A DNA stretch of 64,000 nt, taken from positions 17,730,001-17,794,000 of the forward strand of contig CM049308.1 in the NCBI GenBank assembly GCA_026874595.1, given 5' to 3'. The translations under genes were made by a program, and so were the position numbers. Numbering within the stretch: the first letter of the stretch is position 1; each line of letters opens with the position of its first letter. The notes below the pieces were generated by a model that worked only from the letters and a program-made list of their open reading frames with translations, made no database searches and was not told the origin of the DNA. Shown here in pieces: positions 4,162 to 58,369 of the stretch. Origin of the DNA: Sipunculus nudus. Taxonomy: Eukaryota > Annelida > Sipuncula > Golfingiida > Sipunculidae.

Positions 4162-5980
4162 GGTACATCGCCTATAATTAATGTGTTTAAGGTTTCTAAG
4201 CCATTTTAGTGATAGGAACGAGGGCCTATGGACTGTGGTCGGGAGGAGGTGACAAAATTGCCGATATCTCGTGTAACAGCTTGTACATAAATTAACAATA
4301 TATAACTTCTTATTACAAGTTTTAATTTAATTAAAATTTGCTTAACTTCTGATAACATCTGTTTAAGCGTTTAAATGTTAAACTTTAAACATACCAAATT
4401 TAGTCATTTTTTTAAATTTATTGAATTTTTTATTCCAGACTTTGATATCAGAATATAATATTTTATCTATTTTTATGACAAAATATTTTATAATGAGAAA
4501 AATCAGGGGTTTTTTTCTCGGCACTCAAACACAGGCTTCATTTCTTGCAAATTGAAGACCTGAAGCACAGTTTGGAGATGGAGCACACAAGGCGAAAGGG
4601 TGAACATTTTTTTGTACATGAACATTGAATCACATAACACCAGTTCTATTCATCCGAACAAATTACTCAAGTTGACCGAACTATAGTGAATTAAACAAGT
4701 CCAGACACGTCAAAACCAAAACTGCAAATCAGCACCCGGGAAGAACAGATACCGGGACAAGGTCAATAAAAGACCTTTTCAGTTGATGACTCACAAACTA
4801 AGACTACCAAATGTGATAGATCTTTGATATCATTACATCAATATCTCGTGAACGGGAAAAGGCTAAAGTTGTTTCAAAGGGTTGGTACCGCATGGGCAGG
4901 ATTAAGGCATAGGGGGGACGGGGGGGGGGGTGCTCTCCCACACTGTGTAAACTTTGAAAAATATATATCATTTGTAGACAAATATTATGCACTTGAATAA
5001 GATTGCATTAATTTAAGCAAATTTGTGCTTCCGAAATATTTAATGGCAACCTCTATAAATTTACTAATTGTATATAAACCAAAAAACATAAAAGAAGAAG
5101 AAAAAAAAGACATGACTTAAGTGCATGATCATCGATAAGTCTTAATTATCTCCTGTTTTCTTGCTGTTTTGAATGAAAAAGAATGTTAAAAATACTTCAC
5201 AAATATTTAACTTTTGGGTATATTTTGCAAAATTTTGACACGTATGCCCTGTCAATTTACGAAATTTCAGCACCCTAGACAATTGTGAAACAGATTTATT
5301 GGGGCGCACCTGTTGCGCTATCTAAAGAAAATCATGATTATACTTCACAAGACATCTTTTGTTGTTGTTCTTCATCATCATCATCATCATATTTTTATGG
5401 AACATAAATACAATTAAGGAAATATTTCAACAGAAAAAAGTAATTATGTAGACATGATAAACAATTTATTAATTGGCTACATTTCTTATATAATTTCGAT
5501 CATAAGTTGTGATGGAATTAGTCTCGATATATTATCTGCTAGCTCGAATTAGAAAACCGCTACAGATGACACACTCAGTTTGTCTATTTTACATGGATTC
5601 TGTAAAACTTAAATGTTATAAAATTATGAAAACTATTTTATATGATATATAAAAATATATTATCCATATGTGTAAAAATTATTATGTGTAAAATAGTATT
5701 GTTTCTGATGATTATTTAATTTTTTGTTTAGAAGAATGTATGGAAAAACAACTTATTTTTTTTACTTGTATACTTATATCGAAAACCTTTGTATATATTG
5801 CATTAATATATTATAGTTACCTTATTATACCTTACATTTATTCACTTGATAAAAAGTTTTTTCTGTCAATATTTTGTAATTAATAGGCCTAACTATTAGA
5901 AACGCGACTTTCCAACAATACTAATTAAAATAACAAATAATAATTCGCTTTCCATATGCGTTTTGTATTTTCTGTTACAG
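4162..5980. other. AT-rich sequence upstream of YIF1
   Basis: Contains a G run near 4919-4930 and an (ATC)n tract at 5371-5391. No gene was recognised. Confidence 0.6.
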
Positions 5981-24177: not shown

Positions 24178-25760
24178 TGCTTGCCGGAAATCTTCGATTT
24201 CCGCAAGCATGTTGGTCAGTTCCTTATGTCCATTTGTCTTTTTGTCTTTTTTTATTTGTCTGTGCTCTCCTGGCTACAATTTTGCAGCAATCGACATGAA
24301 ACTTACAGAGATGATTGACAACCCAAAGTCCTGGAACCCTATTGTTTTTGGTCAACATCGCATCATGGTGAAGGTCAAGGTCATGGAAAGTATACAATAC
24401 AGTTTTTGCTTCATAACTTTGTAACAAATGGTCGTAGCCACTTAAACCATAGCTTGTTTTATTCGTCATTCCATGGCCTTTTATGTGATGGGTACCTGAC
24501 TCAAATCTGCCATTACCATGGTTACACATTTTTGGGTTAAAACTTGATAATTTGAAAATAGTCATGCTACATTTTCTATCTTTGTCAAATTTTAAGCTAC
24601 ACACGTCTGGTTTTGGTCATTATGTAGCTTATAGGCAGCTTGGCATGATGAAACTGAAAGTCTCGCCAAATCTCGCACATGATCTGGTCAAACGTGAAAA
24701 AACGAGATTTCACGGAAATGCTTATAACTCAGCAACTTTTTAAGCTAGACCAGACTGGTTTTCGGCATTTCGTAACATTTGCCAGCCTGGCATGATAAAA
24801 CTGCAAGACTGGCCAAATCTCGCACCATATCTCGTTTAACGAGAAAAAACGAGATTTCGCGGAAATACTTATAACTCAGCGACTTTTACAGCTACACAGG
24901 TCCAGTTTTCGGTATTTCGTAACATTTTGCCAGCTTGACATGATAAAACTACAAGTCTCGTGAAATCTCGCACCTTATGTTGTCAAACGTGAAAAAACGA
25001 GATTTCACTTAAATACTTATAACTCGGCGACTTTTACAGCTACACAGGTCTAGTTTTCAGTATTTCGTAACATTTTGCCAGCTTGACTTAATAAAACTAC
25101 AAGTCTCGTGAAATCTCGCACTATATGTTGTCAAACGAGAAAAAACGAGATTTCACGGAAATGCTTATAACTCGGCGACTTTTACAGCTACACAGGTCTA
25201 GTTTTCGGCATTTCATAAAATATGACCAGCTTGACAAGCCAGAAAAGAAATCAGGCCAAATCTTGCACCATCTCTCATCAAGCGAGGAAAAACGAGAAAT
25301 CACGGAAATGCTTATAACTAGGCGACTTTTACAGCTAGACAGGTCTAGTTTTCGGCATTTCATAACATTTGGCCAGCTTGACATGACAAACCTGCAAGAC
25401 TAGCCAAATCTCGCACCATATGTTGTCAAACTAGAAAAAAACGACATTTCACAGAAATGCTGATAACTCAGCGACTTTTTAAGCTAGACAGGTCTAGTTT
25501 TCGGCATTTCATAACATTTGGCCAGCTTGACATGACAAATCTGAAAACTTCTCACTGCTTCTTGTCAAACGAGATTAACGGGATTTCATGGAAATGTTTG
25601 AACTTTTACACTAGGAAGGTATGCAGCTATTCAAGGTCAGCATGCATACATAAACGTATTATTCGTTTCTGCTGCCCCCACAGTGTTGCTCATTCATATG
25701 ACTGTTTCTACATGCACTCTCTGTCTATCTGTCTGTATTATTTTCATTTCCGGCAAGCAC
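24178..25760. mobile_element. 1.6-kb element with inverted ends, left-end hairpin and 148-bp core array
   Basis: The left end GCTTGCCGGAAAT (from 24178) is inverted as ATTTCCGGCAAGC near 25747-25759. The left end also folds on itself: GCTTGCCGGAAAT pairs with ATTTCCGCAAGC just downstream, leaving one C bulged. The core is a tandem array (listed separately). No transposase. The architecture (hairpin end, central satellite) recalls 'pearl'/HINE-type non-autonomous elements of bivalves. Confidence 0.78.
24560..25600. repeat. Tandem array, 7 units of about 148 bp
   Basis: The CGAGATTT-type box recurs at 24703, 24850, 24998, 25146, 25293, 25442 and 25579, giving spacings of 147, 148, 148, 147, 149 and 137 bp. 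Each unit also carries CTTATAACTC(A/G)GCGACTTTT and TTTCGGCATTTC. Short frames across it are repeat by-products. Confidence 0.92.
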
Positions 25761-43973: not shown

Positions 43974-46025
43974 AGTGGCGTCAATTTTTCTTCCAGGGTG
44001 GGGGGGGGGGGTGACTTTGTATATATATATATATATATATATGTCAAGGCCCAGATCGCGATCTGGACGGATCTTAGATCTGTCCAGCCCAAATTGCGAT
44101 CGCAGTTCAGGCCGGCCCAAACTGCGATCGCAATCCAGGCTGGCCAGAACTTAGATCTGTCCAGCCTAGATTGCGATCGCAGTTTAGTCCGGCCAAAACT
44201 GCGATCCTTCTTTCTTGCTTCAGGATTGCAATCTGGTCTGGACAGATCTAAGATCAGTCCAGCCGAGATTGCGATCCTAAACTTGACCAGCCCATATTGC
44301 GATCCATGCTTTTACGATCACAGGAGTGAAACATTGGTTGTTTTACCAACTCATTTGGTATTGCATTGTACCATTTTCCCATAATAAATACAATTATAAT
44401 ACAGAAAGGCAATTTTCACTCCTTCATATCACAGGAGTGAAACATGGGATGTTTCACCAACTCATTTAGTATTGCATGGTTGTTGAAAAAAGGTAACAAG
44501 GAAACCATGGGTTTTATATGCTCACAAAATATGATTTGAAAGAGGAGGTAGCAAGTGCAGGTTTTGTGTGGTAATATAAGCTGCATTATGAGCTGATGGT
44601 GTTTAACTCAAGTTATGTAAGACTATGATAATATCCTTGGAGACAGGGAAGAGGATTGATGTCATTTATATTATTTACAGTTGGAATGGTGTGCTGTTTT
44701 CACATAGGTTTTGACTTGGCCATATAACTTTATCTACATTGCAGTAGAATTATTTGAAAAAAACCTGTCCATTATCAGTCATGGTAATTCTGATTTTTAC
44801 AAATGAGAACTTTAATTTAATAATTACTGGTTATTCCTACCCAAGAATAAAACTTAAATAATATAACTGTTTATTATAAATTAATAAATATTGTGTCAAA
44901 TATAATTTAAATTAAAAATAATAACAGCATCATATGAAAAGATCTTTTAATAATATAATTGAAATAAATGATTATTAAAATAATATTATAGAATATATTC
45001 ATGAATACATTCATGATTACATTTTGAAAGTATTTGCATTTGTATACAAATACTTTCATTTATACCTGTATTCCTATTTTTATGCATGAAATTATGGAGT
45101 ACATATATTCATATTCGCATTCAAATGTTTTTGCAAAGTATTCTTATCATGTCTGGTATTTATTCAGTTTCAGCAAAACAAAGTTCTTGAGAATCCAGAA
45201 TTTACAAATTTCACAAATTGATCATAAGTATGATCATAAACCTGGTTTTATGGCTTTAATTTATATTTAAACATGAAACTATTATATTCACTTTGGACTA
45301 CTTTCACAGCAATCTAAGCACTAGACATAGCAAAGGTCTTATGACAATTATCAACATTACAGAAATCTTAACAAGAACTTGTCTAAGATCTGATTTTTTA
45401 TCATATTTAAAAATTTTTATTTAGAAAAATGTAAAAAATTTAAAAGAAATCTCAGCTATGAAACCATTTTAAGAATAAAAAATAACTCAAGCATAAGAAC
45501 ACCCTATAAATTGTACAAGGAGAAAACTAGAGATGGGCAAGTTTAATTTTATTAACATAAATTGAGGAACCAGCAATACAGATTTTGATTATTTACATAG
45601 TCTTGTGACAGCTGATACAGCCACGAGTCTTAATATTATTAGTGAAACATATTGACATATTTAATCAGTACTTGTCTGAGTAAAATTTTAAAATTTTGAC
45701 ATATTTTACTTTTTTAAATTTTAAAATAACTATAAATTAACAAGCTGAAACACTTGGATCGCATTGATCGCAATATGGGCTGGTCAAGTTTAGGATCGCA
45801 ATCTTGACTGGACAGATCTTAGATCTGTCCAGTCCAGATTGTGATCCTGAAGCAAGAAAGACAAGATCGCAATCCTGGCCAGACTAAACTGCGATCGCAA
45901 TATAGGCTGGACAGATCTAAGATCTGGCCAGCCTGGATTGCGATCGCAGTTTGGGCCGGCCTGAACTGCGATCGCAATTTGGGCTGGACAGATCTAAGAT
46001 CCGTCCAGATCGCAATCTGGGCCTT

Positions 46026-46085
<60 letters not shown>

Positions 46086-46412: not shown

Positions 46413-47996
46413 GACTTTGATCATTGCCTTGATGAGAAAACATGAGCAAATCTATAAACTATATGAATAATTCCTGCCCGTTTTGGCTTATCCAGCGGTG
46501 TGCCCTATGAGCTAATACCTTGGCATTGTGGTGTCTATCAACTGACATTACACGTCACACTAACAGAATTTTCAAAATTGTTCTTCTCCTTATTCTCTTG
46601 ACAGATTTTAATTTCTTAAGTATTTTGAAAATAGTAAAGAGTATTTCAGAAGAAATCATGTTGTCATAAAAATAATGAGCTGAATAAAAGTCATTTGTTG
46701 TCAAAAGCATTTGTTGGTGTTATATGACAGAAATCTAGATCAAATATATAAGATACCCAAGTGAAAGTCACACATCTGCCATTTATACTGTTGTAATCAT
46801 TTAGTTTATGAATAATACAGTAATTTTTGACTATTTCTTTTATGCTTACATCATCACCTTAAGAACATTTTGAAATTTAAATGATTTATTAAGTGTCTGT
46901 ATGTATCCTTTTTATTATGTCGGCACTTTCAGTATATATAAGTTTTATTGCTTTGTTTTGACGTGCCAGTCATTAAAGTATATAGCAGTACCATGATGTG
47001 AAATATCATTCTTGCGTCTCATTGATCTGTACAGATGGTAAATCTCTCATTTAAGTAGGTACAAGGTACCGTGATTGTAACAGTAGACCTAGTAAATAAA
47101 CGTCCCAGAACTTACAGGGAAGTAAATGTGCAGGTAAATACAGGTGATGTGTATGTACATATCATGTAAAATAAATCACAGGTGCAATACCAGGTAGCTA
47201 CATCACCCTAACGAGCTTCACAGTTTATGTAAACAGTAATGTTTATTGTACTTGGAAGAGGAAACCATGCACAACACTCGCTCACATCTACAGTGACAGG
47301 CACACATATACACACATAGACACATTTACATGTAAAGACATAAAAAATGCAAATGGGATGCATGAAATTATTTCAAGGTACACAAATACATTAATGTCAT
47401 AACACTTTCAAATTAAGTACCTATACATGGCATCTATAGAACTATGAATCATAACCTTCCAAAGAAAAGCACTGACTGCTGGATATTTAATGTTTGGTGT
47501 GACATCATGTTGAGAATGTACACCCCTGTCTAATCATGTACACTGACACTGACAGGTAGGCATGTGTCTAATCCCTGTATGCTTTTCTGTGTGATTTTCA
47601 ATGAGTAGGAAAGTCAAGCAAGAAGACACAAGTTGAGATTTTCCATTTATGCTTGCATTCAGCGCACTTCCATTTGTACTTGGAAGAATCTGAAATCTCA
47701 TTTGACCTGGAACAGATTACAGTTACTAAAAACCAAGCTAAATATATTTGTTGTAAGGTGTTACCTCAGATGGCTCAGAATGATATACATGCACATCTTC
47801 AGAACAGGGGAATAACTTCTTTGTCTTTAGAAGAATCATGATTATTTCAGGATTATCTTATCTTATTTTAGAATTCCATGTAGTCCTGGAATGAATATAA
47901 TCAATATCATGTACTGGTAGTCCTTGCAGGTTCTTAATTTTCTCAAATTTAATTAATTTTCTTGGATAAGATATATTATTTATTTGTATTTTATTT

Positions 47997-49267
47997 GTCC
48001 CCCGCCATAAGGAGGGAGGACTACTAAAATAGTCCGTCCATCTGCCTGTCCTTCCGTTGGCCCTCCCCTTCACTGATGCCACACTTTTCTAGATAAACAT
48101 ATGGGTAGGGGGATTTTTGTGTGCCTAGGCCTTTGTTTAGTCTGGTGGTACTATATATGAAAGGCATTTGGAGACAAAAACCATGCCATTTTGAGTGCCA
48201 GATTTAAAGCTTGATGATCTTAACAATGAAGACGAAGAGAGTTCCAACATTAACTGCAAGAGGCTTCATGTTGTTTGAGTAGGTTCTGTGACTGAGGCTA
48301 TGGAGACTTTTGGGGTATATGACTGGAATTTACAAGGATACAGGTGTACCAGCCAGCAGTTACTGTCTCCTAGGTCTGATTGGATCACAGCCTGAATCAC
48401 CCAGACTGTCCTCTAATATCTTCCTGGAGTAGCTTTGCTTGGGAAAGAACAACCTTAACAAAAATGGCTGGGAGCTAATTTTGATGTGTATAGGTACAAG
48501 GTGGGAACCTCATATACATTGACTATTTGTAAGGGATTAAAATTCAGAATATTGAACATCTACCTGGCATAGCATGAGGGGGCTTTGCTCTGATGAGTGT
48601 TGATTTTATGATGTTGTTATTGTATGCTAAGATATCCATGGGATAATGGGCACTGTAAAGTAAGTTTTAATTACATTTTATATTCATTTTAATGTAGGCT
48701 TATGATAATATCCTGTGCATATTGATAATGGTTATAGTATGATTGTATATTAATGCAGAGTAAGACAAAAGAAAATTCCTTTATACCAAAGTAATTCTGT
48801 CGTATAATGATTAATAATTAACATAAGAATGGGATGATTCCAGTAAATTGAATGCTTCTTTATGAATGTCCTTTATGTAGAATTGATTTTGATATTTCAT
48901 GCTTAATATTTAATATAAAAAAGGGATATTGCCTTTAATATTGAGTACATTGTATCAGATATGAATAATATATTAAAACAGGCAGGACAAAAAAATTAAA
49001 AATATAAATTAGTAAAATATTAATTAACTTAATAATACCTTATGTGGATTAGTGTATCGTTGTTACAAGTACTTGTGATCTAACAACAGCAAAAAAATAG
49101 GTTTGAACAGTGATAATTATCAAGATATGAGATATCTATCACTTGATTTATCAATGTTGTTAAGCAACATCAGTAGTCTATAGACTTTACTTATCACAAG
49201 ATCATACTTGTACTGAGCTTGCAATATGAGAAGGCCGATTTGGACTTCCTAGTTACAAATATTGTAC
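47997..49267 (+). repeat. 1.27-kb dispersed repeat, copy 1 (uninterrupted)
   Basis: Starts GTCCCCCGCCATAAGGAGGG and ends TTGTAC. Copy 2 at 49928-53144 is similar along its whole length except for a 1949-bp insertion. Flanks outside these borders do not match, so these look like two insertions of one element family. The left end can fold (GTCC...GGAC), like other hairpin-headed elements here. Confidence 0.9.
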
Positions 49268-50986
49268 AATATTTGAGTCAATGTACAATTGAGACAATTT
49301 CAGTCTTGCCTGAATTGAACTCCATGCTAGCCTATTATTGCTGTATGTTTGATCTTAACTTTTGATAATCAAAAACTTTCTGGTACAAAGCTTTGATTAT
49401 GGGCATCGGTGTGGGACATGAACTGTGACAGGCCACAAGTTGGTGGCCTGCTATTGGGGAACAGAGATATTCTGATGAGACCGGCGCAGTGAAGCACCTT
49501 ATTTGTGACATTCATCATACCACTTATGCCATTTGACAACTAAAACATTTGTACCAACTGTAAATCTTTACATTGTGTATTACTGCTCTAAGTTAACCCT
49601 GGTTCCCCCTGCAGAATCATTTCTTCTTTACTAAATTGGTATATTTGTTTTATTTGTGTCATAATCCTTGACCTTGTGTCATTCTAAATCATTAACTTTA
49701 GTATTTCCTAGCACAATGTACAATAAACAAGCTTGTATAACAATAAAAACATTTTTTTAAATTATTCTATTTTGGTTTAATAGGTTTGGGCATTTTTTAT
49801 ACAATTGAGGAGTGTTAGCCAGTTATAGCCAGTATTGGCCACTTTTGAGATATTGACCTGGCAGGATCCAGCCGGCTTTAGCCAGCGGTTAAAGCTGGGG
49901 GTGGCTCTTACTGGCCAACCCTGATTAGTCCCCTGCCGGAAGGAGGGAGGACTACTACAATAGTCTGTCCATCTCTCTGTCCTTCCATCGCCAAGCCCCA
50001 TCACTGATGCCAGACACTCCTAGATAAACATATGGGGGGGGGGGGGGGGTTATTTGTGTGTCCAGGCCCTTGTTTAGTCTGGTGGTACTATATATGAAAG
50101 GCATTTGGAGATGAAAACAGTTCCATTTTGAGGGGGGTCAGCAATGCCAAATTTATATCTTGACAGAGAGAGCTCCAACATTAACTGTAAGAGGCTTCAT
50201 ATTGTTTGAGTAGGTGCTGTGACAGGGGCTGTGGAGACTTTTTGGGGTATATGACTGTAAGGCAGTCTGAGTTTACAAGGACACAGGTGTACCAGCCAGG
50301 GATTACAGTATCCTAGGTCTGATTGGATCACAGCCTGAAGTGTTCATGACTGTCCTTTAATATCCATTATCCTGGAGTAGTTTGCTTGGGAAAGAACAAC
50401 CTTAACAAAAATGGCTGGGAGCTAATTTTGATGTGTATAGGTACAAGGTGGGAATCTCATATACATTGACCATTTGTATGGGATTAAAATTCAGAATATT
50501 GAACATCTACCTGGCATGGCATGAGGGGGCTTTGCTCTGATGAGTGTTGATTTTATGATGTTGTTATTGTATGCTAAAATATCCATGGGATAATGGGCAC
50601 TGTAAAGTAAGTTTTCATTACATTTTATATTCATTTTAATGTAGGCTTATGATAATATCCTGTGCATATTGATATGGGTTATAGTATGATTGTGTATTAA
50701 GGTAGAGTAAGACAAAAGAAAATTCCTTTATACCAAAGTAATTCTGTCGTATAATGATTAATAATTAACATAAGAATTGGATAATTCCAGTAAATTGAAT
50801 GCTTCTTTATGAATCTCCATTATGTGGAATTGATTTTGATGTTTTATGCTTGATACTTAATATAAACAAGAGATATTGCCTCTTATAATGAGTACATTGT
50901 ATCAGATATGAATTATATATTAAAACAGGCAGGCCAAAAAAAATTAAAATATAAATTAATACGATATTATGTAGATAAGTGTATCA

Positions 50987-52935
50987 TTGTATTGCCAGAC
51001 ATAGTCTGGAGATACTATGGTTTAGGCACGGTCGCGCCGCCGCCGCCGCCGCAGAGATTTCTTTTGGACACAATAACTCAAAAAATATTTCACGGATCTT
51101 TACCAAACTTGGTATATGTATAGATATGGGTGAGAGGACGACGCCTATTTAAAATGAGGTCATGACCTCAACTAGGAGAGTGACCTTGACCTTGAACAGG
51201 GTCAATTTTAGGGAAAATCACACAAATTCTTAAATATCTCAAGAAAACTTGCATGGATTGATCCCAAAATCAAGTTGATCAAAGATCATGGATAGGGTTG
51301 TCATGTTCCAGAAACTGGTGGCGCCACCTATTATTCTTTACTTGTTTTCATGCCGTTTAATATCCCCAAAATTGCTACTTGACAGTACTGTGAGCATTAT
51401 AAGTCAAAAACTAATGGACAGATTTCTTTCATATTATGCAGATACATAGATATGGGTTATGGGATGATGTTTATTTAAATTGGGGTCATGACCTTTCCTA
51501 TGAGAGTGGCCTTGACCTTGAATATTGCCATATATGGTGAAAATCACACAAAATCATTAATATCTCAATAAGGGATGCATTGATTGGTCCAAAAATCAAC
51601 TTGACCGAAGATCTTGGATAGTAATGTCATGTACCGGAAACAGGTGGCGCCACCTGTTATTCTTTTACTTGTTTTTGTGCCGTTTAATACCCCATCATTG
51701 CCCTTAACAGTACATTTATAACCTGTGAGCATTATAAGTCAAAAACTAATGGACAGATTTCTTTCATATTATGCATATACATAGACATGGGTTATGGGAT
51801 GATGTATATATAAATTGGGGTCATGACCTTTCCGATTAGAGTGGCCTTGACCTTGAATATTGCCATATATGGTGAAAATTACACAAAATCATTAATATCT
51901 CAATAAGGGATGCATGCATTGGTCCAAAAATCAACATGTTCTAAGATCTTGGAAAGTATTGTCATGTACCGGAAACAGGTGGCGCCACCTGTTATTCTTT
52001 TACTTGTTTTGTGCCGTTTAATACCCCATCATTGCCATTTATCAGTACTGTGAGCATTATTAGTCAAAAACTAATGGACAGATTTCTTTCATATTATGCA
52101 GATACATAGATATGGGTTATGGGATGATGTTTATTTAAATTGGGGTCATGACCTTTCCTATGAGAGTGGCCTTGACCTTGAAGATTGCCATATATGGTGA
52201 AAATCACACAAACTCATTAATTTCTCAATAAGGGATGCATGCATTGGTCCAAAAATCAACTTGACCGAAGATCTTGGATAGTAATGTCATGTACCGGAAA
52301 CAGGTGGCGCCACCTGTTATTCTTTTACTTGTTTTCGTGCCGTTTAATACCCCATCATTGCCACTTAACAGTACATTTATAACCTGTGAGCATTATAAGT
52401 CAAAAACTAATGGACAAATTTCTTTCATATTATGCATATGCATGGATATGGGTTATAGGATAATGTTTATTTGAATAGGGGTCATGACCTTTCCAATGAG
52501 TGGCCTTGACCTTGAATATTGCCATATATGGTGAAAATCACACAAAATCATTAATTTCTCAATAAGGGATGCATTGATTGGTCCAAAAATCAACTTGAAT
52601 GAAGATCTTGGATAGTGTTGTCATGTACGGGAAACAGGTGGTGCCACCTGTTATTCTTTTACTTGTTTTCGTGCCGTTTAATACCCCATCATTGCCACTT
52701 AACAGTACTGTGAGCATTATAAGTCAAAAACTAATGGACAGATTTCTTGCATATACATAAACATGGGTTAGGGGATGATGTATATTGAAATTTGGATCAT
52801 GACCTTTTCTATGAGAATGACCTTTTCTATGAGTGTGGTCTGATTGTGGCTGAAGATGGGGGGCCTATTCTTAAAGGGGGGGGGGATTAATTCTCTGGCG
52901 ATACTATGGCACCTGCGGTGCCAAGAAATATCTAG
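50987..52935 (+). mobile_element. 1.95-kb non-autonomous element with Helitron/HINE-like ends and tandem core
   Basis: Compared with the empty site in copy 1 the insertion is exact apart from an ambiguous TTGT (50987-50990 or 52936-52939). The left end has a hairpin CCAGAC-ATA-GTCTGG (50995-51009). The right end has GGCACC-TGC-GGTGCC (52908-52922), a 9-nt spacer, then CTAG, followed by T. That is the textbook layout of a Helitron 3' end. CTGG(A/C)GATACTATGG is a direct repeat near both ends (51006-51020, 52895-52909). The core is a ~330-bp tandem array. No Rep/helicase frame, so it would depend on a helper. The usual 5' TC is not at the border. Confidence 0.82.
51050..52860 (+). repeat. Tandem ~330-bp units in a dimeric (~660-bp) arrangement
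   Basis: The palindrome box falls at 51317, 51643, 51978, 52303 and 52637, giving steps of 326, 335, 325 and 334. The alternation comes from about ten extra bases (ATTTATAACC) in every second unit. The box is AGGTGGCGCCACCT in most copies; the last has one change. Confidence 0.92.
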
Positions 52936-53692
52936 TTGTTACAAGTACTTTTGATCTAACATAAGCAAAAAGATAGGTTTGAACAGTGATAATTATCAAG
53001 ATATGAGATATATATCACTTGATTAAACAATGACGTAAGCAGTATCAGTAATCTATATACCTACACTTAATCTCAAGATCACACTTGTACTGAGCTTTTA
53101 ATATGAGAAGGCAGAATTTGACTTCCTAGTTACAGATATTGTACATACACATATTGGGTGAATGTTTATTTGTTGGTGTAAAAACAGAATAATATAAAAC
53201 ATAGTAATAATTACAAAGCCTTGCTGGTGCTGTGTACATACATATATTGTACATATCTCTTGTGATACCCATATGATTGAATGACAGATGAGTAATACAT
53301 CTATTTTTTTGTAGCTATCAGTCTTGTTGCTATAAATAAATTCTGTCCTGTCAATCAAACTAATGGCTTACATCATGTCTGACATAGCATTTTTGCTTTA
53401 TCACAATGATCCTGGAGCATGTAACATAATTAAGGTCTTGTTTTTCCATAAATCTTTTGCCGGAAGTCAGCAACATCTTTTATAAGGAGGATATCAAAAT
53501 GTTTTCTTGTTATAGCTTGTAAAGACTTGTAAAGACTCATGTATTCAACTATTGGATGATATCTTAATATGGAGCTGGTAAAATATAGCAAATGCTGCAC
53601 CAGTTACAGTGTTCACAAAAAAAACTTTCTGGGTTACTTGTGGGTGTGGATATTGCAACAGCTTGTAAAAGTACTGCAGTTTTAGATATTCC

Positions 53693-54644: not shown

Positions 54645-55149
54645 TTCCCATACATTAAAAAATAGACCCTGACTTCACGTGTAGAAATCTATTAATGTTC
54701 TCCTATTTATTCAATCTACATAGTAAATTTGGCCTGATCAGTGCTATTGTAAATATATTGTATAAATTACCAGTCAATTATATAGTACAGTGAACCTGTT
54801 TATACTGAAGTTAAACATTTTTTCTGTGGCAGTAACTGGTAATCCCACCTTGAAACTGCAATGCTTATGCCAGGACATTTATACAGTAATTCAAGCTGAG
54901 TGCTGTGACCCATGGGTCTCTTATAAGTAGAGTGAACCGGTTCTTATAGCAGGGGTAAAGTTTAAATTTCTCACCAGTACCAAAGTGTATTTCATACAAC
55001 AGGAGACATTGTATCTCAAAGGAGTACTTGGCTTTGAAGTACTCTTGATACTAAGAATAACTTACTTTAATCTGTAGGTCTTAAATAAGTCTGCTTTGTT
55101 TTTATTGATTTTCCTGCAAGGTATGGAGAAGTGAAGATTTAGAAGCTGT

Positions 55150-57430
55150 GTACTGTTACTGTATGTCATTAGCCACTCATCATGAAACCTGTACACCATA
55201 ACTGTATCTCATTAGCCACTCTGTCATGGAAACTGTTTCCTGTTACTGTATCTTATTAGCCACTTGGTCATGGAAACTGTTTACTGTTACCGTATTTCAT
55301 TAGCCATTCAGTCATTGAAACTGTTCACTGTTACCATATTTTATTAGCCCCTTAGTCATGGAAACTGTTAACTGTTACCGTATTTCATTAGCCACACAGT
55401 CATGGAAACTGTTTACTGTTACTGTATCTCATTAGCCACTTGGTCATGGAAACTGTTTACTGTTACCGTATTTCATTAGCCATTCAGTCATTGAAACTGT
55501 TCACTGTTACCATATTTTATTAGCCCCTTAGTCATGGAAACTGTTAACTGTTACCGTATTTCATTAGCCACACAGTCATGGAAACTGTTTACTGTTACTG
55601 TATCTCATTATCCACTCATTCATGAAACCTGTTTACTGTTACTGTATCTCATTATCCACTCATTCATGAAACCTGTTTACTGTTACTGTATCTCATTAGC
55701 CACTTGGTCATGGAAACTGTTTACTGTTACTGTATCTCATTAGCCACTTGGTCATGGAAACTGTTTACTGTTACCGTGTTTCATTAGCCACTCAGTCATT
55801 GAAACTGTTCACTTTTACCATATTTTATTAGCCCCTTAGTCATGGAAACTGTTAACTGTTACCGAATATCATTAGCCCCTTAGTCATGAAAACTGTTTCC
55901 TGTTACTGTATCTCATTATCCACTCATTCATGAAACCTGTTTACTGTTACTGTATCTCATTATCCACTCATTCATGAAACCTGTTTACTGTTACTGTATC
56001 TCATTATCCACTCATTCATGAAACCTTTATGAAGTTACTGTATCTCATTAGCCACTTGGTCATGGAAACAGTTTACTGTTACTGTATCTCATTAGCCACT
56101 TGGTCATGGAAACTGTTTACTGTTACTGTATTTCATTAGACACTCAGTCATGAAACCTGTTTACTGTTACTGTATCTCATTAGACACTCAGTCATGAAAC
56201 CTGTTTACTGTTACTGTATCTCATTAGACACTTGGTCATGGAAACTGTTTACTGTTACTGTATCTCATTAGGCACTTGGTCATGGAAACTGTTTACTGTT
56301 ACTGTATTTCATTAGACACTCAGTCATGAAACCTGTTTACTGTTACTGTATCTCATTAGACACTCAGTCATGAAACCTGTTTACTGTTACTGTATCTCAT
56401 TAGACACTTGGTCATGGAAACTGTTTACTGTTACTGTATCTCATTAGCCACTTGGTCATGGAAACTGTTTACTGTTACCGTGTTTCATTAGCCACTCAGT
56501 CATTGAAACTGTTCACTTTTACCATATTTTATTAGCCCCTTAGTCATGGAAACTGTTAACTGTTACCGTATATCATTAGCCCCTTAGTCATGGAAACTGT
56601 TTACTGTTACTGTATCTCATTATCCACTCATTCATGAAACTTGTTTACTGTTACTGTATCTCATTATCCACTCATTCATGAAACCTGTTTACTGTTACTG
56701 TATCTCATTATCCACTCATTCATGAAACCTTTATGAAGTTACTGTATCTCATTAGCCACTTGGTAATGGAAACAGTTTACTGTTACTGTATCTCATTAGC
56801 CACTTGGTCATGGAAACTGTTTACTGTTACTGTATTTCATTAGACACTCAGTCATGAAACCTGTTTACTGTTACTGTATCTCATTAGACACTCAGTCATG
56901 AAACCTGTTTACTGTTACTATATCTCATTAGCCACTTGGTCATGGAAACTGTTTACTGTTACTGTATTTCACTAGCAACTCAGTCATAAAACCTGTTTGC
57001 TGTTACTGTATTTCACTAGCCACTCAGTCATGAAACCTGCTTGCTGTTACTGTATTTCACTAGCCACTTGGTCATGGAAACTGTTTACTGTTACTGTATC
57101 TCATTAGACACTCAGTCATGAAACCTGTTTACTGTTACTGTATCTCATTAGCCACTTGGTCATGGAAACTGTTTACTGTTACTGTATTTCACTAGCCACT
57201 CAGTCTTGAAACCTGTTTACTGTTACTGTATTTCACTAGCCACTCAGTCATGAAACCTGTTTGCTGTTACTGTATTTTACTAGCCACTCAGTCATGAAAC
57301 CTGTTTGCTGTTACTGTATTTCACTAGCCACTAAGTCATGAAACCTGTTTGCTGTTACTGTATTTCACTAGCCACTCAGTCATGGAAACTGTTTACTGTT
57401 ACTGTATCTCATTAGCCACTTGGTCATGAA
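55150..57430 (+). repeat. 44-bp minisatellite array, about 52 units, with higher-order repeats
   Basis: Unit TTACTGTTACTGTATCTCAT followed by TAGCCACTTGGTCATGGAAA and CTGT, with variants. A 16-unit block repeats at exactly 704 bp: GAAGTTACTG at 56031 and 56735, ACCGTGTTTC at 55773 and 56477. An earlier 4-unit block repeats at about 176 bp. It lies in PACS intron 1. Repeat units are contiguous with no unique spacers, so it is not a CRISPR array. Confidence 0.95.
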
Positions 57431-58369
57431 ATTATACTCTTTTAACTTAATTATTCACTGATTTCAGAAAATGACTTACTAACATTGAATGAAACAACAA
57501 GTGATACTGAATATAATAATTGTAAATGTTGACAATAGTTAAATGTTTTAAGATGAGCATTTCCTTAGTTCATTATTCATACAGCACTAACAGCTCTTCC
57601 AGGGTCTTACATCTCATGATCTGACTTTCTGCTGGTGATAAGACCTTCCTGAGGGGACTACCAGACTGTTGCTTTTAATCCTGTATGTTGAGAGCATGTC
57701 CCAGGGCTTAGATTACAGTGTAAACACCACTCTTCAGGTTTTGAAGGACCTTGGCAGACTGTCTTTGTCCCTCTCAGTGTCAGTTGTAAATTTTAACTCA
57801 CAGCTGTAATCCCATGAGTTATGTCAGTAACAAAATGTATGTATGTGATACGGTATAAACATTTAACATATCTCTTTTAAGTCTTTAATTCCTACAGTTT
57901 GCCACCTACAGTGTGCCACTAATCCACTTGTAAACAGTTTTAACTGGAGTGCAGGATTTGGCCTGGTGGTTAAAAGTCAGGTGTAAAATTAATACTACAT
58001 TTGTAACATGTCTGCTCTGCTATCACATCTGCAGGCACAATTCAGGTATAGCATTATGTGTGCAAGATATAAATGCTAAGCACACATTGTGTGAGCAACC
58101 CCCATGCAATTCCTAGCCTCATGCAGAGAAAACCATGTAAATCTTAAATCAATAACTCTATACAAATAAAGATTTTTTCACATGGTCACATTTTTTTCAC
58201 CAGTATTTTGTAGACTCAAACAGGCCATATACCCATCCTTTTTAACATTAAAATGGACATATGTTAAACTGAAATATATTGTCATGTTTATATTCACAAG
58301 TTCAGTATGTGTCTTTGTTAACATTTTTGAATGTTTCTGCAGATAAAATTAATATAATCTTCTGTGTAC

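Follow-up and report, generated by a model that had tools for sequence, protein, structure and literature searches.

According to Thomas et al. 2014 (PMC4067079), Helentrons and HINEs insert at TT, the number of Ts being variable; TT is likewise the target listed for Helentrons in a study of fungal elements (PMC5148889). HINEs carry subterminal inverted repeats of about 11-15 bp, located a few nucleotides from the 5' end and accompanied by an IR or a palindromic repeat. Cg_HINE of Crassostrea gigas (PMC7492417) combines a left module (subterminal inverted repeat, IR and microsatellite), a satellite core and a right module (subterminal inverted repeat and palindrome); it shows no target site duplication, is preferentially found at TT and forms thousands of arrays. 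In the Helitron2 group, the 5' repeat lies 0-2 bp from the 5' end and forms a hairpin, and the 3' repeat lies about 20-30 bp from the other end, upstream of the 3' hairpin (PMC3627910).

Here we describe an element that shares these features in a 64,000-nucleotide stretch of the Sipunculus nudus genome (hereafter the window). The segment 50987-52935 is, with high confidence, a HINE: a rolling-circle transposon of the Helitron2/Helentron type that is non-autonomous, has a satellite as its core and sits in the second of two copies of a host repeat. Elements of this kind are already known, and the detail of the landing site is the new part. The HINE label as used here spans both a strict Helentron HINE and a non-autonomous Helitron2.

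The two copies of the host repeat (Table 1) are colinear when aligned with 50987-52935 omitted, as the preliminary description of this locus had claimed. At the junction, they differ solely by an A/G at position -1 (...GTATCA^TTGTTACAAG... in copy 2 versus ...GTATCG^TTGTTACAAG... in copy 1, where ^ marks the point of insertion), with small indels and substitutions elsewhere.

Table 1. Coordinates of the host repeat copies and of the parts of the probable HINE in the window.
Feature	Position	Strand	Basis
Host repeat copy 1 (~1.27 kb), uninterrupted, the empty paralogous site	47993..49284	+	alignment
Host repeat copy 2, left of the insertion, ending T-C-A	49924..50986	+	alignment
Probable HINE-type non-autonomous Helitron2/Helentron element, 1949 bp, TTGTAT...CTAG	50987..52935	+	
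5' subterminal (asymmetric) inverted repeat GTATTGCCAGAC; family majority GTATCGCCAGAC	50989..51000	+	
Internal IR GTCTGGAGATAC, the 3' arm of the 5' hairpin	51004..51015	+	
GCC microsatellite of the left module, varying in length from copy to copy	51034..51052	+	
Satellite core, ~330-bp units (5.2 copies), position-specific unit types	51120..52824	+	
3' subterminal inverted repeat CTCTGGCGATAC; majority GTCTGGCGATAC	52893..52904	+	
3' palindrome GGCACC-TGC-GGTGCC	52908..52922	+	
3' terminus CTAG, then host TT	52932..52935	+	
Host repeat copy 2, right of the insertion	52936..53165	+	alignment

The 5' end of the element reads TT + GTATTGCCAGAC + ATA + GTCTGGAGATAC, so that the 12-nt repeat begins 2 nt from the end and its IR follows 3 nt further. 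At the other end, the order is GTCTGGCGATAC (CTCTGGCGATAC in the window copy), TAT, GGCACC-TGC-GGTGCC, 9 nt and CTAG; the 3' repeat ends 31 nt from the element's 3' end, compared with about 38-60 in mite HINEs (PMC4067079). The end pair of the family is TTGTATCGCCAGAC and GGCACC-TGC-GGTGCC-N9-CTAG. The right border (a hairpin, a 9-nt spacer and CTAG before a T) had thus been correctly recognized, as had the motif CTGG(A/C)GATACTATGG shared by both ends (51006-51020 and 52895-52909). This motif corresponds to the 5' hairpin's inner arm at one end and to the 3' subterminal repeat at the other; the true 5' repeat, GTAT(C)GCCAGAC, is the complement of each. The 5' and 3' repeats match at 12/12 positions and the 5' hairpin pairs at 11/12 in 14 of 19 copies, the window copy being weaker (10/12 for both). 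With DNA parameters and the majority 12-mers, computed energies are -14.9 kcal/mol for the duplex and -9.1 kcal/mol for the hairpin. The window ends also fold better than dinucleotide shuffles (z of -5.1 at the 5' end, and of -3.1 or -4.1 at the 3' end according to the stretch taken). We found no ORF of at least 72 aa with an ATG, GTG or TTG start overlapping the element, and an Rfam search of the window gave zero matches at gathering scores.

This anatomy includes the HINE features (subterminal inverted repeats plus an IR, a palindrome downstream of the 3' repeat and insertion at TT without duplication) as well as those of Helitron2 (a 5' hairpin formed from the 5' asymmetric repeat, which recurs upstream of the 3' hairpin). 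The published plan of DINE-1, the HINE of Drosophila, matches it. Rolling-circle movement is inferred from this anatomy and from insertion without duplication. A canonical Helitron (Helitron1), with a 5' TC, a 3' hairpin followed by CTRR and insertion between A and T, would account equally for the 3' palindrome, the 9-nt spacer, the mostly A^T junctions and the terminal CTAG (38/40 copies, in a sample chosen by 3' similarity). Nevertheless, the 37 copies readable at their 5' end start with TTGTAT rather than TC, and they belong to a family that has 12-nt subterminal inverted repeats as well as a 5' hairpin, both absent from Helitron1 as characterized in PMC3627910; we therefore regard this assignment as very unlikely. 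The preliminary description had proposed either a HINE or, for lack of a 5' TC, a new variant. The former stands, while the latter does not, as Helitron2, Helentron and HINE elements start with T or TT.

The family is abundant. Allowing up to 3 mismatches, the genome contains 5,255 matches (2,608 + 2,647) to a 36-base pattern taken from the 3' end, whereas the reversed control pattern does not occur at all, so that the 3' end cannot be due to chance; these occurrences are 3' ends, not necessarily whole elements. Individual copies were collected with a 76-bp query from the 3' end, and the best 40 of 703 candidates were retained (39 of them outside the window). All are 97-100% identical and, being picked by score, they form a biased sample of similar 3' ends. 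Nineteen elements are complete, including that of the window, and range from 953 to 2291 bp in steps of about 330 bp. Nine of 11 further elements measured also fall on these steps; L061 (1083 bp) and L068 (1903 bp), both complete, lie off them. Two loci considered as longer or autonomous elements were rejected: L034 is a copy with a mutated 5' end and L044 a copy with a deletion inside the 5' module. Near base 4514 of L044, on the reverse strand, TTGT is joined to AGGCACGG, the 5' hairpin is gone and the flank is still TTA. Several copies (L038, L043 and L063; L048 and L061) sit in one abundant host repeat family, as judged by eye for L061 and L063, and the L038 and L043 insertions are only a few bases apart.

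The core is indeed a satellite, as had been noticed before, arranged in tandem with a period of 335. When units are counted from the 5' end, those at the same position in different elements are on average 97.2% identical, versus 92.3% for units at different positions, whereas counting from the 3' end makes little difference (94.2 versus 93.2). In addition, units four and five resemble units two and three, respectively. Units are thus position-specific: the array is passed on in order and mostly altered by whole units. Cg_HINE units are mostly 140-180 bp long (PMC7492417) versus about 330 bp here, and the two elements are alike in plan. The satellite nature of the core would also agree with an array formed in situ or through recombination, with fortuitous ends. 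However, the same 3' end is present at 5,255 places with mostly unrelated flanks, empty sites are precise, and the ordered unit types are common to copies by position; the probability of such an origin is negligible.

Other repeats occur in the window. A 44-bp tandem array spans 55142-57452 (about 52 copies, 87% matches) and a 148-bp satellite-like array spans 24590-25599 (about 6.4 units), in the flanks of which no HINE 3' end was obvious by eye. Finally, 44020-44309 and 45761-46051 form an inverted pair, 94.5% identical over 291 bp and with repeats of about 28 bp inside, which may represent the two arms of a foldback element.

The borders of other copies, whose comparison the preliminary description had recommended, bear out those of the window element. 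Flanks were read at the 5' end in 37 of the 40 scored copies (L034, L044 and L054/L026 were left out for an unusable end, and the TTA preceding TTGT in L044 was excluded from the count) and at the 3' end in all 40. As the copies were selected by 3' similarity, the CTAG frequency is biased upward, but the flanks are unselected. All 37 copies with a readable 5' end start with TTGTAT, whatever bases follow CTAG. Their 5' flank reads T-N-A in 34 cases, with T at -3 in 36 of the 37 (as background, T makes up a fraction of 0.334 of the flanks in 20 copies), T, A, C and G at -2 in 15, 14, 7 and 1 copies, respectively, and A at -1 in 34. Since the three exceptions (L047, L057 and L067) carry an A and then one extra T, an A precedes the T-run in 37/37. 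At the other end, the last four bases are CTAG in 38/40 (exceptions L062 and L063) and the flank is TT in 38/40, the exceptions being L048 (= L019), where it is TA, and L063, whose damaged end is followed by AT. Every copy with an undamaged 3' end has a T at +1, so that one T may be counted on either side of the junction. Read from these flanks, the site is TNA^TT or TNAT^T.

Empty sites allow us to separate host from element bases. We compared the joined flanks of the 19 complete elements with the window and the collected loci, and found paralogous empty sites for six of them (window, L031, L038, L043, L045 and L048), with no gap within 10 nt of the junction; a self-match of L035 that spanned the junction by only 12 nt was dropped. 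With ends placed at TTGTAT...CTAG, zero bases are gained or lost at the six sites. The alignment rows are not independent, as the L019/L048 place is counted twice for L043 and many rows represent one host repeat family. T at -3 is found in 44/44 rows and thus belongs to the host sequence. A at -1 is less regular: it is found in 11/12 rows for L038, 1/1 for L045, 13/13 for L048 and 5/15 for L043 (the closest row of which has a T with a nearby gap), and in no paralogue of the window element (G) or of L031 (T, 2/2). Paralogues of only four of the six elements therefore show this A, versus 34/37 filled sites. The paralogues are mostly 70-90% identical, which leaves room for later change. The A facing G or T in the window and L031 may perhaps reflect divergence, or perhaps an A borne by the element, and it is possible that the A at -1 is partly element-derived and replaces one host base.

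The same comparison bears on target duplication. Insertion as A^T without duplication and a duplicated TTGT had been judged to fit equally well; the reading without duplication holds, save for the one assignable T, and a TTGT duplication is ruled out, as the 37 copies read at the 5' end all start with TTGTAT. A two-base duplication of TT is excluded in L048: its paralogues read A^TA in 13/13 rows, yet the element begins with TT, which is thus element sequence in that copy. These results weigh against a MITE-like element that moves by cut and paste and duplicates a short target (TTGT, TT or T), an explanation suggested by the TT flanking both sides of most copies and by the fact that Pearl, a related bivalve element, was first called a MITE (PMC7492417). 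Here TTGT is element sequence, L048 begins with TT at an A^TA site, and the inverted repeats are subterminal and asymmetric, so that a 1-bp duplication of T is the sole duplication still compatible with the data; we consider a MITE-like origin highly improbable. The observations that the preliminary description had named as refuting its proposal, terminal inverted repeats and fixed-length target duplications, are thus not made in this family, with the 1-bp T duplication as the exception.

Under the no-duplication reading, which the family as a whole supports, 50987-52935 are the borders of the Helitron2/Helentron-type element. The window junction alone gives one mismatch fewer if the border is shifted leftward by a single base (50986-52934, C^G), but none of the other four testable elements prefers this shift (one is tied). 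The TTGTAT...CTAG border is preferred by L038, L045 and L048 (tied there with neighbouring rightward shifts); L031 is tied, and the closest empty-site row of L043 is uninformative on border placement.

Thus resolved, to T-N-A^TT with a CTAG terminus, the site is finer than the TT preference described for Cg_HINE (PMC7492417). A similar one has been reported for the fungal Helitron2 elements FoHeli1, FoHeli2 and those of Chaetomium, whose target is TNAT plus a next base given as T in a figure legend and as A in the text (PMC5148889), a resemblance between one family here and one paper there. This is the only paper that a full-text search of the open-licence literature returned for Helitron and TNAT together. 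FoHeli1 and FoHeli2 also have a 5' hairpin and a 12-bp inverted repeat that recurs subterminally at the 3' end. Unlike the window element, the fungal elements are autonomous, lack an endonuclease, end in ATTTT rather than CTAG and are not known to carry a satellite core; those of Chaetomium have no 5' hairpin (PMC5148889). In Phytophthora, proto-Helentron-Pi shares with the window element the 5' TT, the 3' CTAG and A^T insertion without target site duplication, but it is a protein-coding element of about 14 kb, described as having a typical Helitron structure (PMC4067079). The Helitron2 of Chlamydomonas differs from the family studied here by inserting between TTTT and T/C (PMC3627910).

The genome contains potential sources of the transposition proteins, with 143 matches to PF14214 (Rep). 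At L069, OTU-like, Rep, PIF1 and Exo_endo_phos domains lie in one open frame, which makes it a Helentron. L073 carries Rep and PIF1; an endonuclease was detected neither in its 1658-aa frame nor in the 170-aa one that follows. The preliminary description had suggested looking for a Rep-helicase element with the 3' hairpin of the window element. Rep genes are present, but the window element's 3' end is absent from the ~4-5 kb read 3' of each of four Rep loci (L069-L072), where L069 was read on both strands and L070-L072 on the gene strand only, so that a distant end or an opposite gene orientation would escape. Similarly, no Rep was seen by eye within 15 kb of perfect 3' ends on contig C1 among the matches listed, the listed 3' ends being the first of the 5,255 (C1 and the start of C2). 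A second, putative hairpin-CTAG end followed by TTTTT occurs at L072 5042-5082 (C7:71198341-71198381), about 5.6 kb 3' of the L073 frames; no similarity to it was seen in three stretches of 2 kb taken where such an end would be expected near other Rep genes.

Mobilization of the family could proceed as follows. A Rep-helicase supplied in trans would nick at the T-run of the element's 5' end and displace a single strand, and it would read the 3' palindrome and CTAG as the end. The 3' repeat may mark this end by competing with the internal arm for the 5' repeat, as in the published Helitron2 model. The strand would then be joined just before a target TT, the satellite being passive cargo.

These data would provide a near nucleotide-level rule for HINE integration: T-N-A^TT without duplication, with a 5' TT and a 3' CTAG. 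As this rule resembles the site of endonuclease-less fungal Helitron2 elements, the question of which domain selects the target becomes testable. It is conceivable, though we think it rather unlikely, that the whole Helitron2/Helentron branch ancestrally integrated at TNAT^T, a site recognized by the Rep domain and not by the endonuclease captured by Helentrons. If so, the 'TT' or 'T-rich' preference of animal HINEs would be an under-resolved TNA^TT, and the Rep-helicase of L073, in which no endonuclease was detected, would be one plausible driver of the window element's family. The family is, in addition, a clear example of transposon-borne satellite repeats, dispersed as cargo and made of position-specific units.
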